From NCBI GenBank assembly GCA_903839875.1, contig CAIMDZ010000221.1, forward strand, positions 1 through 42,142: DNA of 42,142 nt. The letters run 5' to 3'. Made by a program: the position numbers and the translations under genes. Source of the stretch: an uncultured Bacteroidota bacterium. Its GTDB lineage: Bacteria > Bacteroidota > Bacteroidia > Chitinophagales > Chitinophagaceae. A model generated the notes under the pieces. The model did not search any database, was not told the origin of the DNA, and saw nothing but the letters and a program-made list of their open reading frames with translations. Position 1 is the first letter of the stretch. Each line of letters begins with the position of its first letter. Below, piece after piece: positions 1,001 to 9,701 of this stretch.

Positions 1001-2893
1001 TTACCTCACAACCGGCAAAATAATCCTGCTGGGATGATCATGACTACTATAGATTTTTATATCACACGGTACAAAATCGGTTTCTGAGCAATGATAAATA
1101 TCTACAAACTGTTGTGGGTTCCTGTCCACCAAAGGGAACCAGGTGCTCTGTATCTGCACCATCACCCGGTGGCCTTTTTTGAATACGTGGGCTACATCGG
1201 GCAGTTTGTATTTTACCTCAGTGATCTTAAATGTTTCAAAGGCTTCCGGCTTTTCAAAGCCGTTGCGGTAGCGGCCACGCATCACCTCGCCGCGCACCAG
1301 CATCTCGTAGCCACCCATAGGGTAGGTCTTTCCGTTTCCGGCGCCGTCCTTTTCCCTGTAGCCAAAGGTGTCGGGGAAAACGTCAATCAATTTTACCACG
1401 AAATCAGCGTCGGTGGTGGAAATGGAGGCGTACAGATCTGCTACAACCGGCCCGGCAAGTGTGAGGTCGCTTTTCAGCACATCCGTTTTGAACACGAGCA
1501 CATCAGGGCGGCGGCCTATCTGGCGCTGGTCATCGTCCATATATTCATTGGTGCGGCCCATGTGAATACCATCGGTATAGGGCACAGGCTTCATGGGGTC
1601 GCTGGTGTATTTGGTAAACTTTACATCTTCACTCATTTCCGGTGCGCTCCAGTTAAGCCGGCCATTACCGTGCAGGTACATACTTTGGTTTTCCTTATTT
1701 GCAGGTGGCCATTGATTATAAGTGCGCCATACGTTGGCGCCGCTAAAGAATATAGTAGCCGCGCTCACATACCGGGCATTTTTTCTGCCGTACAGATAGC
1801 GGTCAAAAAAAGGTTTTTCTATAGCCTTTTGGAAATACTCCGAATTTTTAGCCCCAAACCGCACATTACCCAGGTACTCGCCGGAGCCTCTTGCCCAGCC
1901 ACCATGACTCCATGGGCCCATCACCAGTTTGTTGTTATTCGGGGCTTTTTCTTCTATTGCCTTATACAGGTTCCAGGCTCCGAAGCAGTCTTCGGCATCG
2001 AAGAGGCCGCCAACCACAAGGGTAGGTACACTGGCAGGTATATGCTGCACAAAGCTGCGGGTATTGCGCACTTTCCACCATTGGTCGTAGTTGGGATGGT
2101 CGTACAGGTCTTTCCAGAATTTGATGGAATCACCCAGCAAAGCTGCCAGGTTTTTAAGCGGACCTGTTTCTAAATAAAACTTGTAGTTATCTTTTGTATA
2201 GTATTGAAAACCACCTCCCCACGTATTTGTCAATCCATGCCTTGGCCTTCCGAAACCGCTATAAAAATTAAAGGCGTCCATTTCCATAAATGCCCCGTTG
2301 TGGTGAAAATCATCGCCTATAAACCACTCGGTTACCGGTGCCTGCGGGCTCACCGCCTTCAGGGCGGGGTGGTGGGAGAGTGCAGCCATCGTGGCATAAA
2401 ACCCGGGGTAGGAGATACCATATACACCAACCCGGCCATTATTATCCGGTACATTTTTCACCAGCCAGTCTATGGCGTCATAGGTATCGCTGGCTTCGTC
2501 TGTTTCAGTCCCTTTCTTATCCGGGTTGTAGGGGCGCACATCCATAAATTCGCCCTCGCTCATAAACCTTCCCCGCACATCCTGGTTCACGAGGATGTAG
2601 TTATCCTTCGCATAATTCATTTTAGGCGTATTCCACATCTTACTGAACTCTGTGCCGTATGGCGAACAGGAATACGGGGTTCGGCTAATGAGGATCGGGT
2701 GTTTTATCTTATCGTGAGCGTCAGTCGGACGGGGCGCATATATGGTGGTAAACAGCTTTGCGCCGTCACGCATTTGTATATATACTTCCTGCTTCGTATA
2801 ATGGGTTACGAGCCAGGCTGAATCAGATACCGGGTCTTGAGCGAATAATGAAAGGGGCGCAATTAGTAGTGCAATCAACAATATTTTCCTCAT
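1001..2893 (-). CDS. Secreted CocE/NonD-family hydrolase (X-Pro dipeptidyl-peptidase / alpha-amino-acid ester hydrolase type)
   Basis: A 630-residue serine hydrolase with a signal peptide (residues 1-19, ending LFAQ). The alpha/beta-hydrolase core carries the family motif GISYPG with nucleophile Ser161. The acid is most likely Asp299 in GGLFDAED and the histidine His330 in GPWSHGG. The C-terminal third fits the jelly-roll domain of this family (X-Pro dipeptidyl-peptidase C-terminal type). Members hydrolyse acyl esters or peptides, often beta-lactam or alpha-amino-acid derivatives; the exact substrate cannot be read from sequence. The protein is probably periplasmic or exported. Its start overlaps the end of the upstream gene by 71 nt, which is unusual. 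Confidence 0.93.
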   Translation of the reverse strand: MRKILLIALLIAPLSLFAQDPVSDSAWLVTHYTKQEVYIQMRDGAKLFTTIYAPRPTDAHDKIKHPILISRTPYSCSPYGTEFSKMWNTPKMNYAKDNYILVNQDVRGRFMSEGEFMDVRPYNPDKKGTETDEASDTYDAIDWLVKNVPDNNGRVGVYGISYPGFYATMAALSHHPALKAVSPQAPVTEWFIGDDFHHNGAFMEMDAFNFYSGFGRPRHGLTNTWGGGFQYYTKDNYKFYLETGPLKNLAALLGDSIKFWKDLYDHPNYDQWWKVRNTRSFVQHIPASVPTLVVGGLFDAEDCFGAWNLYKAIEEKAPNNNKLVMGPWSHGGWARGSGEYLGNVRFGAKNSEYFQKAIEKPFFDRYLYGRKNARYVSAATIFFSGANVWRTYNQWPPANKENQSMYLHGNGRLNWSAPEMSEDVKFTKYTSDPMKPVPYTDGIHMGRTNEYMDDDQRQIGRRPDVLVFKTDVLKSDLTLAGPVVADLYASISTTDADFVVKLIDVFPDTFGYREKDGAGNGKTYPMGGYEMLVRGEVMRGRYRNGFEKPEAFETFKITEVKYKLPDVAHVFKKGHRVMVQIQSTWFPLVDRNPQQFVDIYHCSETDFVPCDIKIYSSHDHPSRIILPVVR

Positions 2894-3455
2894 TGTAGAA
2901 ACGGTTGAGGATATAAAAATAGGAAAGAAGCAGATAAAAGTTACTATTTCCTGCCTGACTTGTAATAAAGTCTGGCAACATTTTGTCTGCGGACTGCCTG
3001 TTGGTCAAAAATCCGGGCTCCTGAACCGGCATGACTGCCTGTACGCTTTGTGAATTTTTTGGTGCGGGAAATACGTACCATGTATAAACTTTGATCCCAT
3101 ATGGATCAATGCCGCCTTTTTCCATATATTTTTGTCTCACTCCTTCCTCTGCCTCACCGTATGAAGAGCTACCATTAATAGCCGTAAAAATAGTGTTGCC
3201 ATCTTCGTCATGGCCGGAAATAAAACCCCACCAGCCGGCATTATTGCTCATGAATTGGAGTGCGCAGTCAAGCCCCCCGTTTTCTTTACATTCCTTTATT
3301 GCAAGATCAGCGCATTCCTTCATGGTAAGAGGGACCGTATTGTCAATATTGTATCCTATGCCAAATTTTCCAGTATGCTCGTTTGTGTATACTACGCATT
3401 GCCCATAAGCTAATCCGGTAGAGCAAAAAAGTAGAATAAGAAAGAACTGTTTCAT
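2823..3455 (-). CDS. Small secreted cysteine-containing protein, DUF4189-like, with a run-on C-terminus
   Basis: A 210-residue protein with a signal peptide (residues 1-18, ending GLAYG) and a ~110-residue domain with conserved Cys pairs, a GWWGFISG motif and a VYTWY end. It is clearly paralogous to the next upstream gene (same spacing of CVVY/CVIY, GWWG and VYTWY). The pattern of small residues, Cys and alternating Gly resembles DUF4189-type periplasmic proteins; that family call is tentative. The paralog stops soon after VYTWY, but this frame runs on for ~60 low-complexity residues and into the first 71 nt of the CocE gene. The tail may be non-functional read-on after loss of the original stop. 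A Crp/Fnr-type promoter lies upstream (3508-3550). Confidence 0.65.
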   Translation of the reverse strand: MKQFFLILLFCSTGLAYGQCVVYTNEHTGKFGIGYNIDNTVPLTMKECADLAIKECKENGGLDCALQFMSNNAGWWGFISGHDEDGNTIFTAINGSSSYGEAEEGVRQKYMEKGGIDPYGIKVYTWYVFPAPKNSQSVQAVMPVQEPGFLTNRQSADKMLPDFITSQAGNSNFYLLLSYFYILNRFYNEENIVDCTTNCAPFIIRSRPGI

Positions 3456-3507
3456 AACATGAATGAATTTGTTATTATATAGTACTATACAGTTCTATAC
3501 AATTATA

Positions 3508-3550
3508 CAAAGCTTCTTTATTTATGAATTTTCTCCAATGATGTTAATCA
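3508..3550 (-). promoter_or_regulatory. Crp/Fnr-type operator plus -7 element for the 2823-3455 gene
   Basis: On the minus strand the perfect palindrome TGATTAACATCA (3539-3550) is followed after exactly 23 bp by AAGCTTTG (3508-3515), a one-mismatch TAnnTTTG element. This is the same geometry as the five units at 4147-4937. The predicted leader is ~46 nt. Two more palindromes of the same type, TGATGCTCATCA (3561-3572) and TAACGTTAATCA (3579-3590), lie just upstream without a -7 element at that spacing; they could be auxiliary sites. Confidence 0.6.
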
Positions 3551-3638
3551 ATGGGGTCGCTGATGCTCATCAGTGTTATAACGTTAATCAAATTTTAGGG
3601 ACTGTTGTGCAAAAATTATTTTTGCATATGATAGAACA

Positions 3639-4046
3639 CTAATATTTCACATTGGAATATGAGTACCAAGTATAAACCTGAATGCTGCCTGCATTCATGC
3701 CTCCATCGTTCCTGTATTTGGTCCGAACAGCATCTTCAGCTTCACTTTTTGATGAATAGCCATCGCCGCCCTGGAAGAAATTGCGGCCATCACTCTTCTG
3801 GCCGTTTATTATTCCCCACCAGCCTTTTTTGGCGCTTCTGTACAATTCTGTACAATTGGTGCCACCTTTCTCCCTGCACAATTTCTTTGCCACATCCTCA
3901 CACTCCCGATAGGTGGTTGGTGCATTATCGTTATTAAATCCTGCACCAAAGGCGCCAGTATTGTCATCGGCATAGATCACGCACTGGCCATTTGAATAAA
4001 AAGAGCCGGATAAAATAAGGACCAAAAAAATAATTACTTTTTTCAT
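3639..4046 (-). CDS. Small secreted cysteine-containing protein, DUF4189-like paralog
   Basis: A 135-residue protein. The start is set at the ATG at 4044-4046 because it gives a signal peptide (MKKVIIFLVLILSG, ending SNGQ); a longer frame adds 11 residues upstream. The mature domain matches the neighbouring gene residue for residue at CVIY, the ECEDVAKKLC segment, KGWWGIING and the VYTWY end, and stops shortly after. Tandem duplication is the simplest explanation. Function is unknown; an exported location is inferred. The upstream region also holds the operator-like palindrome at 4125-4136 and diverges into the small-RNA array. Confidence 0.65.
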   Translation of the reverse strand: MKKVIIFLVLILSGSFYSNGQCVIYADDNTGAFGAGFNNDNAPTTYRECEDVAKKLCREKGGTNCTELYRSAKKGWWGIINGQKSDGRNFFQGGDGYSSKSEAEDAVRTKYRNDGGMNAGSIQVYTWYSYSNVKY

Positions 4047-4124
4047 ATATAAACGGATATTTTCAACAAAATTATACAATAATTTATTTAGTTCTATACC
4101 ATTTAAATGGTATTTTTCGTTTTA

Positions 4125-4136
4125 TGACCAGAATCA
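4125..4136. promoter_or_regulatory. Crp/Fnr-type palindrome in the divergent region
   Basis: TGACCAGAATCA fits TGAY-N4-RTCA. It lies between the leftward gene at 3639-4046 and the first rightward small unit. No TAnnTTTG element sits 23 bp from it on either strand, so it is either an auxiliary upstream site for unit 1 (centre ~55 bp from its -7 element) or a site for the leftward gene with an atypical promoter. Confidence 0.4.
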
Positions 4137-4146
4137 TAAATCTGAA

Positions 4147-4189
4147 TAACGTTAGTCATAAACGGCGTAGAAATAGAACGATACCTTTG
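4147..4189 (+). promoter_or_regulatory. Activator-type promoter of small unit 1
   Basis: The operator TAACGTTAGTCA (4147-4158) is a one-mismatch TGAY-N4-RTCA site. After exactly 23 bp comes TACCTTTG (4182-4189). No TTTG (-33) element is present at the usual spacing, as expected for an activator-dependent promoter. Predicted transcription start is ~4196. Confidence 0.7.
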
Positions 4190-4195
4190 TGCTGT

Positions 4196-4284
4196 GGTTA
4201 AATAATAGTGAGTTTTTCATGGGTTAGTTTTTTTTGAATAGTTAAGTACGAAGGCCCTGCTCTATGCAGCGGCCTTCGTCGTTT
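4196..4284 (+). ncRNA. Candidate small RNA, array unit 1
   Basis: A predicted ~89 nt transcript. It holds GTGAGTTTTTCAT and a T-run followed by TTTTGAATAGT, both shared with unit 2. It ends in a strong hairpin (arms ACGAAGGCC and GGCCTTCGT at 4248-4256 and 4271-4279, with an inner CTGC/GCAG stem) followed by CGTTTT. Its hairpin sequence differs from the other four units although the upstream core is conserved. No credible ORF is present. Transcription is inferred from promoter and terminator. Confidence 0.65.
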
Positions 4285-4332
4285 TGGAGCAGGGTAGTAT
4301 TTATAAATCATGACCATAAATATGTATAAACC

Positions 4333-4375
4333 TGACTATTATCATAAAAAACGGATAGGTGTAAGCTTAAATTTG
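4333..4375 (+). promoter_or_regulatory. Activator-type promoter of small unit 2
   Basis: The operator TGACTATTATCA (4333-4344), then 23 bp, then TAAATTTG (4368-4375). The three bases after the operator palindrome (TAA) match units 1 and 3. Predicted start is ~4382. Confidence 0.7.
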
Positions 4376-4381
4376 AATTGT

Positions 4382-4462
4382 GGTTTAAATAGTGAGTTTT
4401 TCATAGGTTAGGTTTTGAATAGTAAAGTGAAAAAAAGGTGCAGTATCAACTGCGCCTTTTTT
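4382..4462 (+). ncRNA. Candidate small RNA, array unit 2
   Basis: A predicted ~81 nt transcript containing GTGAGTTTTTCATAGGTTAG and TTTTGAATAGTAAAGTG. It ends in a canonical intrinsic terminator: stem GGTGCAGT (4437-4444) and ACTGCGCC (4449-4456), tetraloop ATCA, flanked by A6 and T6 tracts. The stem sequence is shared in form with units 3, 4 and 5. No protein is encoded beyond four codons from any start. Confidence 0.72.
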
Positions 4463-4520
4463 AATAGTTCAAAAATTACACCGGAAAGATGAGAAAATTG
4501 TCTAAGATCATATTTTAAGC

Positions 4521-4563
4521 TGACAAAGGTCATAAAATATTGATGTGCAGGCAAATATCTTTG
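4521..4563 (+). promoter_or_regulatory. Activator-type promoter of small unit 3
   Basis: The perfect palindrome TGACAAAGGTCA (4521-4532), then 23 bp, then TATCTTTG (4556-4563). Predicted start is ~4570. Confidence 0.72.
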
Positions 4564-4569
4564 TACCAG

Positions 4570-4643
4570 TTGAGTAAGAATGATTTCATAGTGATAGCTT
4601 TTGAATGATAAATGTATGGCGCAGTATTGACTGCGCCTCTTTT
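4570..4643 (+). ncRNA. Candidate small RNA, array unit 3
   Basis: A predicted ~74 nt transcript with the diverged core TTTCATAGTGATAG and TTTTGAATGATAAATG. The terminator has stem GGCGCAGT (4618-4625) and ACTGCGCC (4630-4637), loop ATTG, then TCTTTT. The single ATG before the core is followed by a stop after two further codons, so coding is unlikely. Confidence 0.7.
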
Positions 4644-4699
4644 ATAAAGACATTGAAAAATAGGAAAAAATCCCGGTTGTTCTAAATCAGTGCGGTTAC

Positions 4700-4742
4700 T
4701 GATCTTAATCATTGATGACCGCATTTGATGTGTGTAGTTTTG
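4700..4742 (+). promoter_or_regulatory. Activator-type promoter of small unit 4
   Basis: The perfect palindrome TGATCTTAATCA (4700-4711), then 23 bp, then TAGTTTTG (4735-4742). Unit 4 alone also has a TTG at about the -33 position directly after the operator. Predicted start is ~4749. Confidence 0.7.
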
Positions 4743-4748
4743 AATGGT

Positions 4749-4816
4749 GATTTTTTTTTCATAAACAGGTTTTGAATAGTAAGTGTAGTACAGGTGCAGT
4801 TTCTACTGCACCTTTT
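4749..4816 (+). ncRNA. Candidate small RNA, array unit 4
   Basis: A predicted ~68 nt transcript, the shortest of the five, with T9-CATAAACAG followed by TTTTGAATAGTAAGTG. The terminator stem is perfect: AGGTGCAGT (4792-4800) and ACTGCACCT (4805-4813), loop TTCT, then TTTTACTTTTT. The compensated bases relative to units 2 and 3 (GGTGC/GCACC against GGCGC/GCGCC) show that pairing is kept while sequence changes. Confidence 0.72.
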
Positions 4817-4894
4817 ACTTTTTATCCCTGGCAGCAGGGTAGTTCCATGTTAATCCTTATCACCCCGGTTATTGCCTATAATCATCTTTATTCA

Positions 4895-4937
4895 TGACTA
4901 TCATCATAGGCATATGCTTTGCCGGATATTACTTTTG
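4895..4937 (+). promoter_or_regulatory. Activator-type promoter of small unit 5
   Basis: The operator TGACTATCATCA (4895-4906), then 23 bp, then TACTTTTG (4930-4937). Predicted start is ~4944. Confidence 0.68.
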
Positions 4938-4943
4938 TATTGT

Positions 4944-5026
4944 TATTATTGAGTGAAGAGAAGTACAGCTTGTTTTTAGAATGATTGAAAAAAATAGGGC
5001 GCAGTCGGACTGTGACCCTTTTTTTT
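4944..5026 (+). ncRNA. Candidate small RNA, array unit 5
   Basis: A predicted ~83 nt transcript and the most diverged member: the core reads TTTTTAGAATGATTGAAA. The terminator stem AGGGCGCAGT (4996-5005) pairs with ACTGTGACCCT (5009-5019), with one bulged A and a G-U pair, and is followed by a long T tract to 5026. Promoter geometry is identical to the other units. Confidence 0.65.
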
Positions 5027-5394
5027 ACCCCGGCACCTTGTAATCAATGGCCAGTTTGTTGTTAAATTCTCAAAATCTGTGTTTTAATAAAAAAGTTGTT
5101 TGACGCTTTTAGTTTTATTTTCCCCACTGTCTGCAATTTTTTTCCACGTAATGACTCCCGGAAGTCTTCGTAAAACTATTCTTTGTTGAGCTGTTCCTGC
5201 CGTTGCAGGTATACTTCACCGGCAACCCTGTCTGCCGACAGCAACCCTGTACACACATATTATTATATTGTCATTTTGCGGCTTATTTTCCATCGCGAAC
5301 TTGCCTACCGGCAGGCAGGTTGGGTAGCCCCGAAGGGGCACGACGGCATTATTACATCTAAAACTACTAACAGGTAGCCTCGCTGAGGTATTCC

Positions 5395-5414
5395 ATCCCG
5401 ATAGCTATCGGGAT
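5395..5414. repeat. 20-bp perfect palindrome
   Basis: CCCGATAGCTATCGGG flanked by AT on each side is a perfect inverted repeat with no spacer. Only one copy is seen in this window. It resembles iterated palindromes found between genes in many Bacteroidota; whether it is iterated in this genome cannot be judged here. Confidence 0.7.
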
Positions 5415-5574
5415 CCTACAAATACATGTGTGTATAGGATAGCTGCCGACAGGCAGGCTCGCGCAGGATGTTCTCTTGGCTATTGAGGCATGTCCCTATG
5501 AAGCAAAATTGCACACCTACTCAAAAAATATTCTTGCACACTTTGGTATTGATAATCAATGTTTTTTCGTTTTA

Positions 5575-5596
5575 AAATTGCGCAGGTGCGCAATTT
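5575..5596. repeat. 10-bp inverted repeat
   Basis: Arms AAATTGCGCA and TGCGCAATTT are separated by GG. No T tract follows, so a terminator role is not supported. Confidence 0.6.
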
Positions 5597-5654
5597 GTTG
5601 CGCAGTGTTTTGTACCTGTCCGTATTGTGCAGGGCAGACACATGGATCTGGCCC

Positions 5655-5930
5655 TACAAAAATAAAACAGCCACTTTAACCACCACAAATGGTGTGCCAG
5701 AAATTTGACAAGTTACTCACATTTTTTGCCCCAATGCTGACCTAACGAATTGAGGGATTCAGGGTTGTGTTGTACAGAAAATTGTGGATATCTTTTTGCG
5801 GGTGAAATTGCGGCAGGTTGTGGCGTGATATTAGGTATTGGTTGTTGGTGAGTTATATTGGGGATGTGGCGCTCAGCGGGATTTGTTGGTGTGGTGGAGG
5901 GTGATTGGTAAAGGACGCGTTTCGTTAATG
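5655..5930 (+). repeat. Dispersed ~270-bp repeat, copy 1
   Basis: Direct repeat of 6720-6985. The central ~105 bp (about 5723-5822), including TGCCCCAATGCTGACC and GAATTGAGGGATTCAGGG, is nearly identical in both copies; the flanks are diverged but alignable to TACAAAAA on the left and the GGTGTGG/GGTGGTGG region on the right. Short minus-strand ORFs in both copies arise from the repeat and look like chance frames. A third diverged copy lies inverted at 9841-9957. Confidence 0.75.
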
Positions 5931-6985: not shown

Positions 6986-7025
6986 GGTGCCATTTCGTCA
7001 TTTATGGGTTGGCAACCGGGGCGAC

Positions 7026-7965: not shown

Positions 7966-8547
7966 TCACATAAATTGTAATGTAATATCTTTGTACAGAG
8001 CGATAAGTTCGGGCAGAGTTATTGTTCTTACACCAACTTCTTTACAAATTGCCGGTATTTTCTTAAATAATTTATTGTCGTTACTTGTTTCTGTCTCTTC
8101 TGTTACCAAAATTATCTCATCCAGTGTGTTTTCACGGACAAGGTTCATGCAGAGTAGTATCAACTTCATGTCAGCATCTTCCAAGAATTTATTCTTCTGA
8201 TTTTCATATTCTACTTCAGTCAATTTTCTCTGTTTCAAAACAATTGAATTGACAAATTGATTATCGACTTGCCTTAAAAACTTAGCGGGAGCTGGGGCAA
8301 TAATGTTTTCTGTTTTGTAAGGAACTTTAGCAGATTTTAGAAAATTTTTATCTGCTAAATATGAAAGCTTATCCAAGACGAGTCCCTTGTAAGTGTAAGT
8401 ACATTGTTCCAAGACTTTGTCAATTACCACTAATTCACCAACTTCGATCTTCGCTTTGATAAAATCAAATAAAATCGAGTTATTATCGAATGGTAAGTAG
8501 TAACGAACCAAGGACAAAAGAGACGTGGTGTCTACTACTACTTTCAT
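7966..8547 (-). CDS. PIN-like protein, DUF4411 type
   Basis: A 193-residue protein. Asp6 in VVVDTTSLLSL is the N-terminal acidic residue of a PIN-like fold; Glu47 in VIDKVLEQC and the acids of DADMKLI and LVTEETETSNDNK are the other likely metal ligands. The C-terminal segment IPAICKEVGVRTITLPELI has the form seen in DUF4411 proteins. PIN-like domains are usually Mg-dependent ribonucleases. Its ATG overlaps the stop of the ImmA/IrrE gene by 4 nt (8544-8547), so the two are translationally coupled; this pairing is common and suggests a toxin-antitoxin or defence module. The precise family name is moderately certain. Confidence 0.75.
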   Translation of the reverse strand: MKVVVDTTSLLSLVRYYLPFDNNSILFDFIKAKIEVGELVVIDKVLEQCTYTYKGLVLDKLSYLADKNFLKSAKVPYKTENIIAPAPAKFLRQVDNQFVNSIVLKQRKLTEVEYENQKNKFLEDADMKLILLCMNLVRENTLDEIILVTEETETSNDNKLFKKIPAICKEVGVRTITLPELIALYKDITLQFM

Positions 8548-9701
8548 TGTAGGTATTTATCTAATTTTTCAGGTTTAATATTCAAAGTTCGACATACATC
8601 GTATTCATTTATTATTCCCTCATAAAATGCGGTCTGCAATGTTGAAATAAGTAATGGCGAATTTATTGGTTTTGGCGCAGAGCCAGATGCCTTTATCCCT
8701 TGTTCCTTTTCTAATTCTTTTAATTTCTTTTCATCGTCTATCTTTTTTCTATATTGTTCGTCTAAATCGCCCTTTATTTTTTTATAATTTTTTGCGGACA
8801 ATTTTTCAAGATAAAGCATTCGTGTAAACAGTGCAATCGTACTAAGATGAGTGCTTTGCGATATCTGAATTACATCTTCGAAATAGTAGTCGTTGGAACT
8901 ATCTGCAACACCAAAATTTCGTATGACTTTATCAAAATCACCAACTAGGAAATAAAAAGCAAAATCGTTACACCATCTTTCGATTGCGCTTAATTTTGAA
9001 TTTGCTAAATTCTGAACATCTAACTCTTCAACTTCTTCTTCGTTAATTAGGTAATGCCCCAGTTCATGAATAAGCGTAAATATCTCTCGCCTAAAAGAAA
9101 TCTGACGCCGTTTTAATACAATAACATTGGGGTTTAGAAAGAAGCCGTCAACATTGGCTATTTCTTTTTTGTTCCATGTTTCAACAAATTCAAAAACCAA
9201 TATATTATTCTCTGCAAACTTTCCAATTAATGCCTTTAAAAACTCTTTAAGATCAGAGTTGAAAGCCGGATACAGGGTTGCCCGAATTTCTTGTGCGATT
9301 TTTTTTGGGTCTTGGTTAATATTGTAAAATAGCAGTGTTCTTTCAATGTTTATTTCGGCAAGTTTTGCCATCGCCGACAAAGAAATTTTAAACTCTTCAA
9401 ATTGATTAACAATTTTCTTCGCTCCAATGTTTAATTCGACACCGAAGTTTGATTTTCTGAAAAAAATACTGGCATCTTTCGATATTTCAGGCGACTTTGG
9501 ATCTAAATAAAAATGTAAACCTTTATTGAAGACTTTATCAATTCGTTTTAAGTAGCTTAGATTAATATCGTTTGAAAAGATTTCTTCCTTGTTTATCTTT
9601 TTTTTGAGTCCTTCACTGACAATAACAAGTAATTCTTCAACTGTCATTTTATAAAGTGACAGTAGGTATTTCAGTCTTTGTATGTTTTGCTCTACTTTCA
9701 A
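8544..9701 (-). CDS. ImmA/IrrE-family metallopeptidase
   Basis: A 385-residue protein with the zinc motif HELGH at residues 212-216 (FTLIHELGHYLINEEE) and the downstream ERWCNDFAFYFL segment, whose Glu241 is the likely third ligand. The ~110 N-terminal residues are mainly helical and may hold a degenerate helix-turn-helix; ~60 C-terminal residues after the peptidase are charged. ImmA/IrrE proteases cleave repressors in mobile elements and stress responses; as partner of a DUF4411 protein it probably controls or processes that protein. No clear TAnnTTTG promoter is visible upstream. First gene of a two-gene operon. Confidence 0.85.
   Translation of the reverse strand: MKVEQNIQRLKYLLSLYKMTVEELLVIVSEGLKKKINKEEIFSNDINLSYLKRIDKVFNKGLHFYLDPKSPEISKDASIFFRKSNFGVELNIGAKKIVNQFEEFKISLSAMAKLAEINIERTLLFYNINQDPKKIAQEIRATLYPAFNSDLKEFLKALIGKFAENNILVFEFVETWNKKEIANVDGFFLNPNVIVLKRRQISFRREIFTLIHELGHYLINEEEVEELDVQNLANSKLSAIERWCNDFAFYFLVGDFDKVIRNFGVADSSNDYYFEDVIQISQSTHLSTIALFTRMLYLEKLSAKNYKKIKGDLDEQYRKKIDDEKKLKELEKEQGIKASGSAPKPINSPLLISTLQTAFYEGIINEYDVCRTLNIKPEKLDKYLQ

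Follow-up and report, generated by a model that had tools for sequence, protein, structure and literature searches.

Small RNAs made at low oxygen are best known from Proteobacteria that carry Hfq. The Escherichia coli RNA FnrS is reported to be induced without oxygen from a class II Fnr site whose centre lies at −41.5, and an Fnr-controlled equivalent with a Rho-independent terminator was shown in Neisseria gonorrhoeae (PMC3032703). Sibling small RNAs that regulate metabolism have been described in Neisseria (NgncR_162/163 and the siblings of N. meningitidis; PMC13104608, PMC5362039), and in Bacteroides thetaiotaomicron the paralogous RNAs FopS and GibS (Rfam RF04319) are reported to be bound by RbpB and to repress by binding near start codons (PMC11697453). 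Among protein regulators, FixL-FixJ-FixK of rhizobia is described as a low-oxygen cascade (PMC7888657). The present analysis concerns five tandem units, each resembling a small-RNA gene behind a Crp/Fnr-type operator, in a 42,142-nucleotide stretch of DNA (hereafter the window) from an uncultured Bacteroidota bacterium of the family Chitinophagaceae (GenBank assembly GCA_903839875.1, contig CAIMDZ010000221.1). We consider it probable that these units form a low-oxygen array of sibling small RNAs, switched by a receiver-Crp regulator together with a FixL-like kinase.

Re-reading the sequence placed the five proximal operators (TGAY-N4-RTCA) and the five −7 elements (TAnnTTTG) exactly where a preliminary description of this DNA had put them, with 23 bp between the two in every unit and a single operator mismatch, in unit 1. 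A second TGAY-N4-RTCA palindrome, absent from that description, was found 22 bp upstream of every operator in the array. All of these elements lie on the + strand. In unit 1 the distal palindrome (TGACCAGAATCA, 4125..4136) has no mismatches, and is followed by the proximal Crp/Fnr-type operator with its one mismatch (TAACGTTAGTCA, 4147..4158) and the −7 element (TACCTTTG, 4182..4189). Unit 2 has a distal palindrome with two mismatches (TGACCATAAATA, 4311..4322), a perfect proximal operator (TGACTATTATCA, 4333..4344) and its −7 element at 4368..4375 (TAAATTTG). The distal palindromes of units 3 (TGTCTAAGATCA, 4499..4510), 4 (TGTTCTAAATCA, 4678..4689) and 5 (TGCCTATAATCA, 4873..4884) each carry one mismatch, and their proximal operators (TGACAAAGGTCA, 4521..4532; TGATCTTAATCA, 4700..4711; TGACTATCATCA, 4895..4906) are all exact-pattern sites, with −7 elements at 4556..4563 (TATCTTTG), 4735..4742 (TAGTTTTG) and 4930..4937 (TACTTTTG), respectively. 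When positions 4000-5100 were shuffled 1000 times with dinucleotides preserved, an operator with at most one mismatch followed at 23 bp by a −7 element arose 0.001 times per shuffle on average and never more than once; in the window the same arrangement occurs five times on the + strand and not at all on the − strand.

The constancy of the 23-bp gap is consistent with an operator centre at −41.5, the class II spacing that had been claimed for the array, which would put the start of transcription four bases after the −7 element, a plausible geometry. The 22 bp between palindrome centres correspond to two helical turns, such that both bound dimers would share one face of the DNA. FnrS, whose Neisseria equivalent we take to be AniS, likewise pairs a small RNA with a class II Crp/Fnr-type operator. 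While FnrS is one gene, the array holds five tandem siblings; it also differs in its operator pairs 22 bp apart, in its Bacteroidota −7 element and in its regulator, which is probably a two-component protein of the receiver-Crp type.

The predicted RNAs, whose ends are estimates (the start of small RNA 1 being taken from the −41.5 rule), all lie on the + strand. Small RNA 1 (4194..4285) was recovered by a covariance model at E 9.3e-11, although the model was built from it, and is backed by fold prediction. Small RNA 2 (4380..4464; terminator hairpin 4437-4458) is supported by a model match, a fold z of −4.5 and covariation; small RNAs 3 (4568..4644; hairpin 4618-4637) and 4 (4747..4822; hairpin 4792-4813) by model match, fold, terminator scan and covariation; and small RNA 5 (4942..5024; hairpin at about 4997-5018), the most diverged, by model match, fold and covariation. 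The 5′ parts of the RNAs are weakly structured in fold prediction. Units 1, 2 and 4 share a close version of the U-rich core that the preliminary description had seen in all units, whereas in units 3 and 5 the core has drifted. The terminator stem covaries in units 2-5; unit 1 has a different one (terminator-like, 4249-4278), and the U tract there is weak. Covariation was assessed in 11 sequences, units 2-5 and seven relatives, with unit 1 omitted as its stem differs. The stem is paired in 92.9% of 99 cells, as compared to only 28-55% in slid controls, and both sides have changed in five of nine pairs. A run of T follows the stem in most of the 11 sequences, and a scan of both strands of 3500-5900 found seven terminator-like sites against a shuffle mean of 1.8.

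Conservation was examined using a covariance model trained on the RNA portions of the five units and of two relatives found by BLAST, with promoter bases left out. At E<1e-5 across 35 genomes of the genus, the model returned the five units and seven RNAs in six other genomes: one copy each in G020, G011, G046, G045 and G043, and two tandem copies in G049. Both G049 copies and the RNAs of G046, G045 and G043, five of the seven, played no part in building the model. Directly upstream of all seven relatives' RNAs lie two perfect palindromes 22 bp apart and, 23 or 24 bp after the second of them, a −7 element. As a promoter control, 30 loci from the covariance search were compared; an operator (at most one mismatch) with an exact −7 element stood upstream of all seven strong matches (unit 2 of the window and six of the relatives' RNAs, all but the first G049 copy) and of none of the 23 weak ones. 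The five units look like real genes, because a model that contains only RNA recovers the RNA and its strong matches carry the operator and −7 element. Operator, −7 element, core and terminator are kept together in 12 members, and the core TTGAATA is retained with a single operator pair in the one-copy genomes G020, G046, G045, G043 and G011. Related genomes had been proposed as the place to look for the operator, RNA and hairpin arrangement, and it recurs in 7 of the 35 genus genomes, host included.

The neighbourhood of the RNA is also shared. On the − strand beside the array lie an S15 X-Pro dipeptidyl-peptidase gene (1001..2893) and, divergent from the array, a gene for a small secreted-looking protein without a family match (3639..4046). 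Homologues of the S15 peptidase were found near the RNA in G049, G045, G043 and G011, homologues of the small protein in G049, G043 and G020, and common flanking genes at the G046 and G020 loci. Given these shared neighbours, the loci are best read as one locus that would carry one, two or five copies of the RNA, and thus offer a natural case of small-RNA copy-number change. Several candidates were discarded along the way. When the array was compared with 40 genomes by BLAST, most matches were noise, and those in G020 and G011 were found to be real on inspection; a G001 match (E 1.7e-4) was rejected as it lacks both an exact operator with −7 element and the core, and the G003 locus, the next-best model match after the strong set (E 1.4e-3), was set aside as it has no promoter. 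In G004 (best model match E 0.79), an apparent core match was rejected because it runs opposite to what seems to be the start of a gene (L102, about 2736). Read on the other strand, that start comes close to the unit 2 core, and the core thus resembles the antisense of a start region.

The promoter itself extends far beyond the array. The host genome (G000) contains 45 exact sites (an operator, then 23 bp, then TAnnTTTG) and none of the reversed pattern, and exact sites were found in 34 of the 35 genus genomes, with a total of 482 against 4 reversed-pattern controls (the controls counted by eye). Base counts at the 45 host sites revealed extra conservation at positions −11 and −10. A second palindrome with at most one mismatch lies exactly 22 bp upstream of 17 of the 45 sites (21 when two mismatches are allowed), and at any other offset from 12 to 45 bp only 0-2 of the 45 sites have one. 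When the gap was left free between 9 and 38 bp and the half-site fixed as TGAC, 39 host sites were obtained, 22 at 23 bp, 10 at 24 bp, 3 at 10 bp and 4 singly at other gaps. The genome-wide recurrence of the promoter, together with the presence of the family in 7 of 35 genus genomes, supports the earlier proposal of sibling small RNAs under what would be one Crp/Fnr-type activator.

The 45 host sites comprise four units of the window, one short RNA and 40 others, and the genes behind these 40 were searched against Pfam, the first open reading frame (ORF) being chosen mechanically as the longest that starts within 400 bases, so that some assignments may be wrong. Families found include HSP20, BON (twice), universal stress protein (three times), a baeRF-family protein, a multihaem cytochrome, MlaE, Nramp, pyruvate:ferredoxin oxidoreductase and NADH dehydrogenase chain 3. 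The 17 tandem sites with at most one mismatch include those before HSP20, BON, multihaem cytochrome, baeRF, MlaE, NHL-repeat and outer-membrane protein genes as well as the short RNA and units 3-5; unit 2 and two of the three universal stress genes have a distal palindrome with two mismatches. Elsewhere in the host genome (L269, at 19463), a short ORF and a 98-residue fragment that matches ccoN, a gene of the cbb3 oxidase, lie behind a tandem site that has one mismatch and is followed by an exact −7 element. In a relative (L242), tandem sites precede ccoN and ccoG, both confirmed by family searches. Judged by eye, ccoN-like ORFs follow such sites in four more relatives, a ccoG-like ORF does so in L243, and ORFs resembling Rrf2 and cytochrome c genes do so in L248 and L250. 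The bacterium probably makes the array's RNAs at low oxygen, since the paired sites also precede genes of oxygen scarcity. In both L248 (about 2405-2416) and L250 (about 7003-7014), a single tandem operator between the divergent Rrf2-like and cytochrome c-like ORFs has an exact −7 element at 23 bp on either side.

A candidate regulator was sought among the ten cNMP-domain proteins of the host genome, two of which are fusions of a receiver, a cNMP-binding domain and a Crp-type helix-turn-helix (Response_reg, cNMP_binding and HTH_Crp_2). One fusion gene, at C11:13649-14716, follows a BON gene and a histidine kinase gene, with a tandem-operator promoter upstream of the run and HSP20 divergent from it; the three genes are predicted to be co-transcribed. 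Among solved structures, the kinase's PAS domain matches the haem domain of FixL best (1d06, E 4.5e-10), and the FixL histidine, which we take to be the haem ligand, aligns to a histidine here. Of 149 genomes of the order, 82 have exact tandem sites and 83 have the fusion protein at E≤1e-40. Among the places listed with tandem sites (24 genomes, not all sites), 17 genomes have the fusion protein, and in at least 10 of these it has a tandem site no more than 8 kb away (by eye). These 10 genomes, selected for that proximity, formed the kinase set: a kinase like that of the host is close by in 9 of them, and the histidine is kept in all 10 aligned kinases, host included (by eye).

These proteins recall the FixL-FixJ-FixK gene set of rhizobia, which resembles the tandem-site genes found here. 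The likeness extends to a FixL haem-PAS relative, a Crp-type regulator and cbb3 oxidase and ccoG/fixG targets. In the host, however, receiver and Crp parts are fused, replacing the separate FixJ and FixK, the operators are paired 22 bp apart and small RNAs are among the targets.

Base pairing at start regions is our leading guess for what the RNAs do. The preliminary description had proposed the shared core as a target-pairing region, for which support was mixed among the units. Exact 8-mer matches to 307 start regions numbered 74, 76 and 118 for units 1, 2 and 4, more than in any of 60 shuffles (means of 43, 45 and 37), but units 3 and 5 and the RNAs of G020, G043 and G011 (the latter tested against host genes) did not exceed their shuffles. 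The ratio of start to rest-of-gene matches was well above shuffles for units 2 (0.77 vs 0.31) and 4 (0.69 vs 0.32) and slightly so for unit 1 (0.40 vs 0.34), for which the rest of the gene was also high. The longest matches are mainly of the ATGAAAAA type, of which TTTTTCAT is the antisense; they are generic and point to no particular target. Duplex energies, compared with 12 shuffles over 311 start regions from part of one genome (20 stretches of 20 kb and the window), favoured start regions over mid-gene for units 1-4 and the reverse for unit 5. As a side observation, unit 4 could form a 10-base pairing with the start of the gene at 3639-4046 (−). The host genome yielded no match for Hfq and a single RRM protein, which among NCBIfam models scores best against one for an RNA-binding regulator, at 82 bits and thus below the cut-off of 100.

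Assembled into one model, five sibling small RNAs of about 75-92 nt would each be transcribed separately. Just ahead of every Bacteroidota −7 element in the array, an activator would bind two palindromes 22 bp apart, centred near −41.5 and −63.5. The likeliest candidate is the response regulator encoded at C11:13649-14716 (receiver-cNMP-Crp-HTH), which the FixL-like haem-PAS kinase next to it would phosphorylate on a fall in oxygen. Tandem sites of this kind would also serve the cbb3 oxidase, HSP20, BON and universal stress genes as well as the BON-kinase-regulator run itself. The RNAs, in which a U-rich and largely unpaired 5′ part is followed by a terminator hairpin, would base-pair with their targets, some RNAs doing so at AUGAAAAA start regions, and because no Hfq was found, the RRM (RbpB-like) protein is proposed as a possible helper. 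The units, the tandem operators, their conservation, the genes downstream of the sites and the family assignments are read from sequence; transcription, the oxygen signal, the identity of the regulator, the operon structure and the function of the RNAs are predictions of the model.

Several observations weigh against this model. The RNA is narrow in distribution as far as the genus genomes and S15 loci reach: it occurs in only 7 of 35 genus genomes, and among the best 80 of 518 S15 loci it was found at E<1e-5 in one (L151), apparently G049's own contig, with weak model matches (E 0.012-0.63) at five more. Some genes behind the promoter sites are not evidently linked to oxygen, 3-dehydroquinate synthase for example, and 14 of the 40 genes lack a Pfam family at E 0.001. 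Units 3 and 5 and three relatives' RNAs show no excess in the 8-mer test. The arginine aligned with the one that we take to play the distal role in FixL is present in the host kinase and is kept in only 4 of the 10 kinases. Regulator and sites co-occur only moderately, with 57 genomes of the order having both, 26 only the regulator, 25 only the site and 41 neither (Fisher p 2.5e-4, uncorrected for kinship). Finally, two of the host's ten cNMP-domain proteins are Fnr-like with N-terminal cysteines (L108 and L109), so that the receiver-Crp fusion can be named only as the likeliest regulator.

The last point leads to a possible, if unlikely, alternative, in which the same RNAs would answer to an iron-sulphur protein of the Fnr type (L108 or L109), or to some other Crp relative, with anoxia, redox or nitrosative stress as the signal in place of FixL-like oxygen sensing. 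TGAY-N4-RTCA is also the half-site pattern of Fnr-type proteins. Besides having the cysteines, L108 and L109 find their best NCBIfam match in the Fnr model, though at 83 and 46 bits against a cut-off of 228, and a perfect tandem site (C24:596-629) lies upstream of the L108 gene, though a search behind this site gave no −7 element, even with one mismatch allowed. Exact tandem sites also occur in 25 of the 66 order genomes that lack a receiver-Crp protein at E≤1e-40. However, it is the BON-kinase-receiver-Crp run that has a tandem site at its own promoter in the host, and at least 10 of the 17 listed genomes with both have a tandem site within 8 kb of the fusion protein (by eye). We infer that the activator is more likely the receiver-Crp fusion with its FixL-like kinase than a plain Fnr.

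A third reading, which we think quite unlikely, dispenses with base pairing and treats the units as promoter-terminator cassettes, whose transcripts would titrate an RNA-binding protein or whose ten palindromes would act as decoys for the activator. Five double operators within 0.9 kb would form a strong sponge, an RRM protein is present in the host genome, and units 3 and 5 do not exceed shuffles in 8-mer matches to start regions, unit 5 failing the duplex-energy test as well. A sponge, however, needs no core, yet TTGAATA is kept with one operator pair in the five one-copy genomes, and operator, −7 element, core and terminator stay together in all 12 members. That the units, being repeats, are a decayed or mobile element or a coding array that merely resembles genes is highly improbable, as the longest ORFs over 4190-5030 reach 41 (+) and 64 (−) codons with none shared from unit to unit (ORF list compared by eye), the promoters are conserved at related loci recovered by the RNA-only model, and the stem covaries.

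Under the low-oxygen sibling-RNA model, the array may work like FnrS and be organised like the sibling small-RNA families. Rfam gave no matches at gathering score over the whole window, and with the limit relaxed to E 1, positions 3600-5700 yielded four sub-threshold matches (STnc40 twice, FopS once and STnc320 once), with FnrS not among them. The FopS family offers a likeness in kind, as its members too are paralogous small RNAs in Bacteroidota. Only unit 2 matched it, at 24.2 bits (E 0.79) against a cut-off of 56, which does not place the unit in that family, and the terms Fnr, Crp and tandem do not occur in the main text of the FopS paper (PMC11697453). The Neisseria siblings are likewise related to one another, but belong to another phylum, and are likened here by description. 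Transcriptome work in Flavobacterium psychrophilum describes small RNAs and reports that cbb3 is induced when oxygen is limiting, and the main text of the paper contains neither Crp nor Fnr as a term (PMC9723704). The preliminary description knew of no Bacteroidota system of this kind; full-text searches of open-licence papers returned no low-oxygen or Crp/Fnr-driven small RNA in Bacteroidota among the matches listed, although with FopS siblings of another kind have been described.

If this is true, no such low-oxygen system with small RNAs would have been described in Bacteroidota before, as far as the literature searches show, and it would operate with other parts, in a genome that has one RRM protein and no match for Hfq. 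The broader proposal, to which we give even chances, is that Bacteroidota have a one-step low-oxygen relay in which a FixL-like haem kinase and a fused receiver-Crp protein, acting at paired palindromes 22 bp apart, control the cbb3 oxidase, stress proteins and an expandable family of sibling RNAs, expandable meaning one, two or five copies at one locus and at least one shorter relative elsewhere. The signature of two TGAY-N4-RTCA palindromes 22 bp apart, a gap of 23 bp and TAnnTTTG may then reveal part of the low-oxygen regulon in many Bacteroidota genomes.

The shorter relative is a sixth RNA-like gene in the host genome, at C46:1110-1152 (−) and downstream (L067 1054-1152 (−)), with two perfect palindromes and a −7 element. 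Its site is alone among the 45 in having no ORF of at least 40 codons downstream. Behind the site come about 56 bases, TGTTTTCATAGACGAAAATTTTGG, TTTTCATAG and a strong terminator-like stem (z −3.9), then T-rich sequence; the stem apex GTTTCTAC recurs in unit 4 and several relatives. The covariance model did not report it.

Other arrangements of the same elements were also seen in the host genome. Sites with a 24-bp gap (L231-L241) number 11, with the TGAC half-site in 10, and are mostly single operators before ORFs, several of whose starts read like central-metabolism genes, such as those for enolase and fumarase. They were set aside as a separate class, yet the RNAs of G011 and G045 combine a 24-bp gap with tandem palindromes. 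The three sites with a 10-bp gap (C10:2291, C102:94744 and C150:20702) may reflect repression or chance. At C39:25778-25855 (L274), four palindromes at 22-bp steps precede an imperfect −7 element and a lipoprotein-like ORF. Within the window, two related small secreted-looking proteins (2823-3455 and 3639-4046, both −) lie beside the array, and both match homologues in G049 and G020; the G049 homologue of the 3639..4046 protein has a sub-threshold match to DUF4189. Further along, at 7966-9701 (−), a DUF4411 protein adjoins a protein with an IrrE-like peptidase domain, in what looks like a toxin-antitoxin-type pair.

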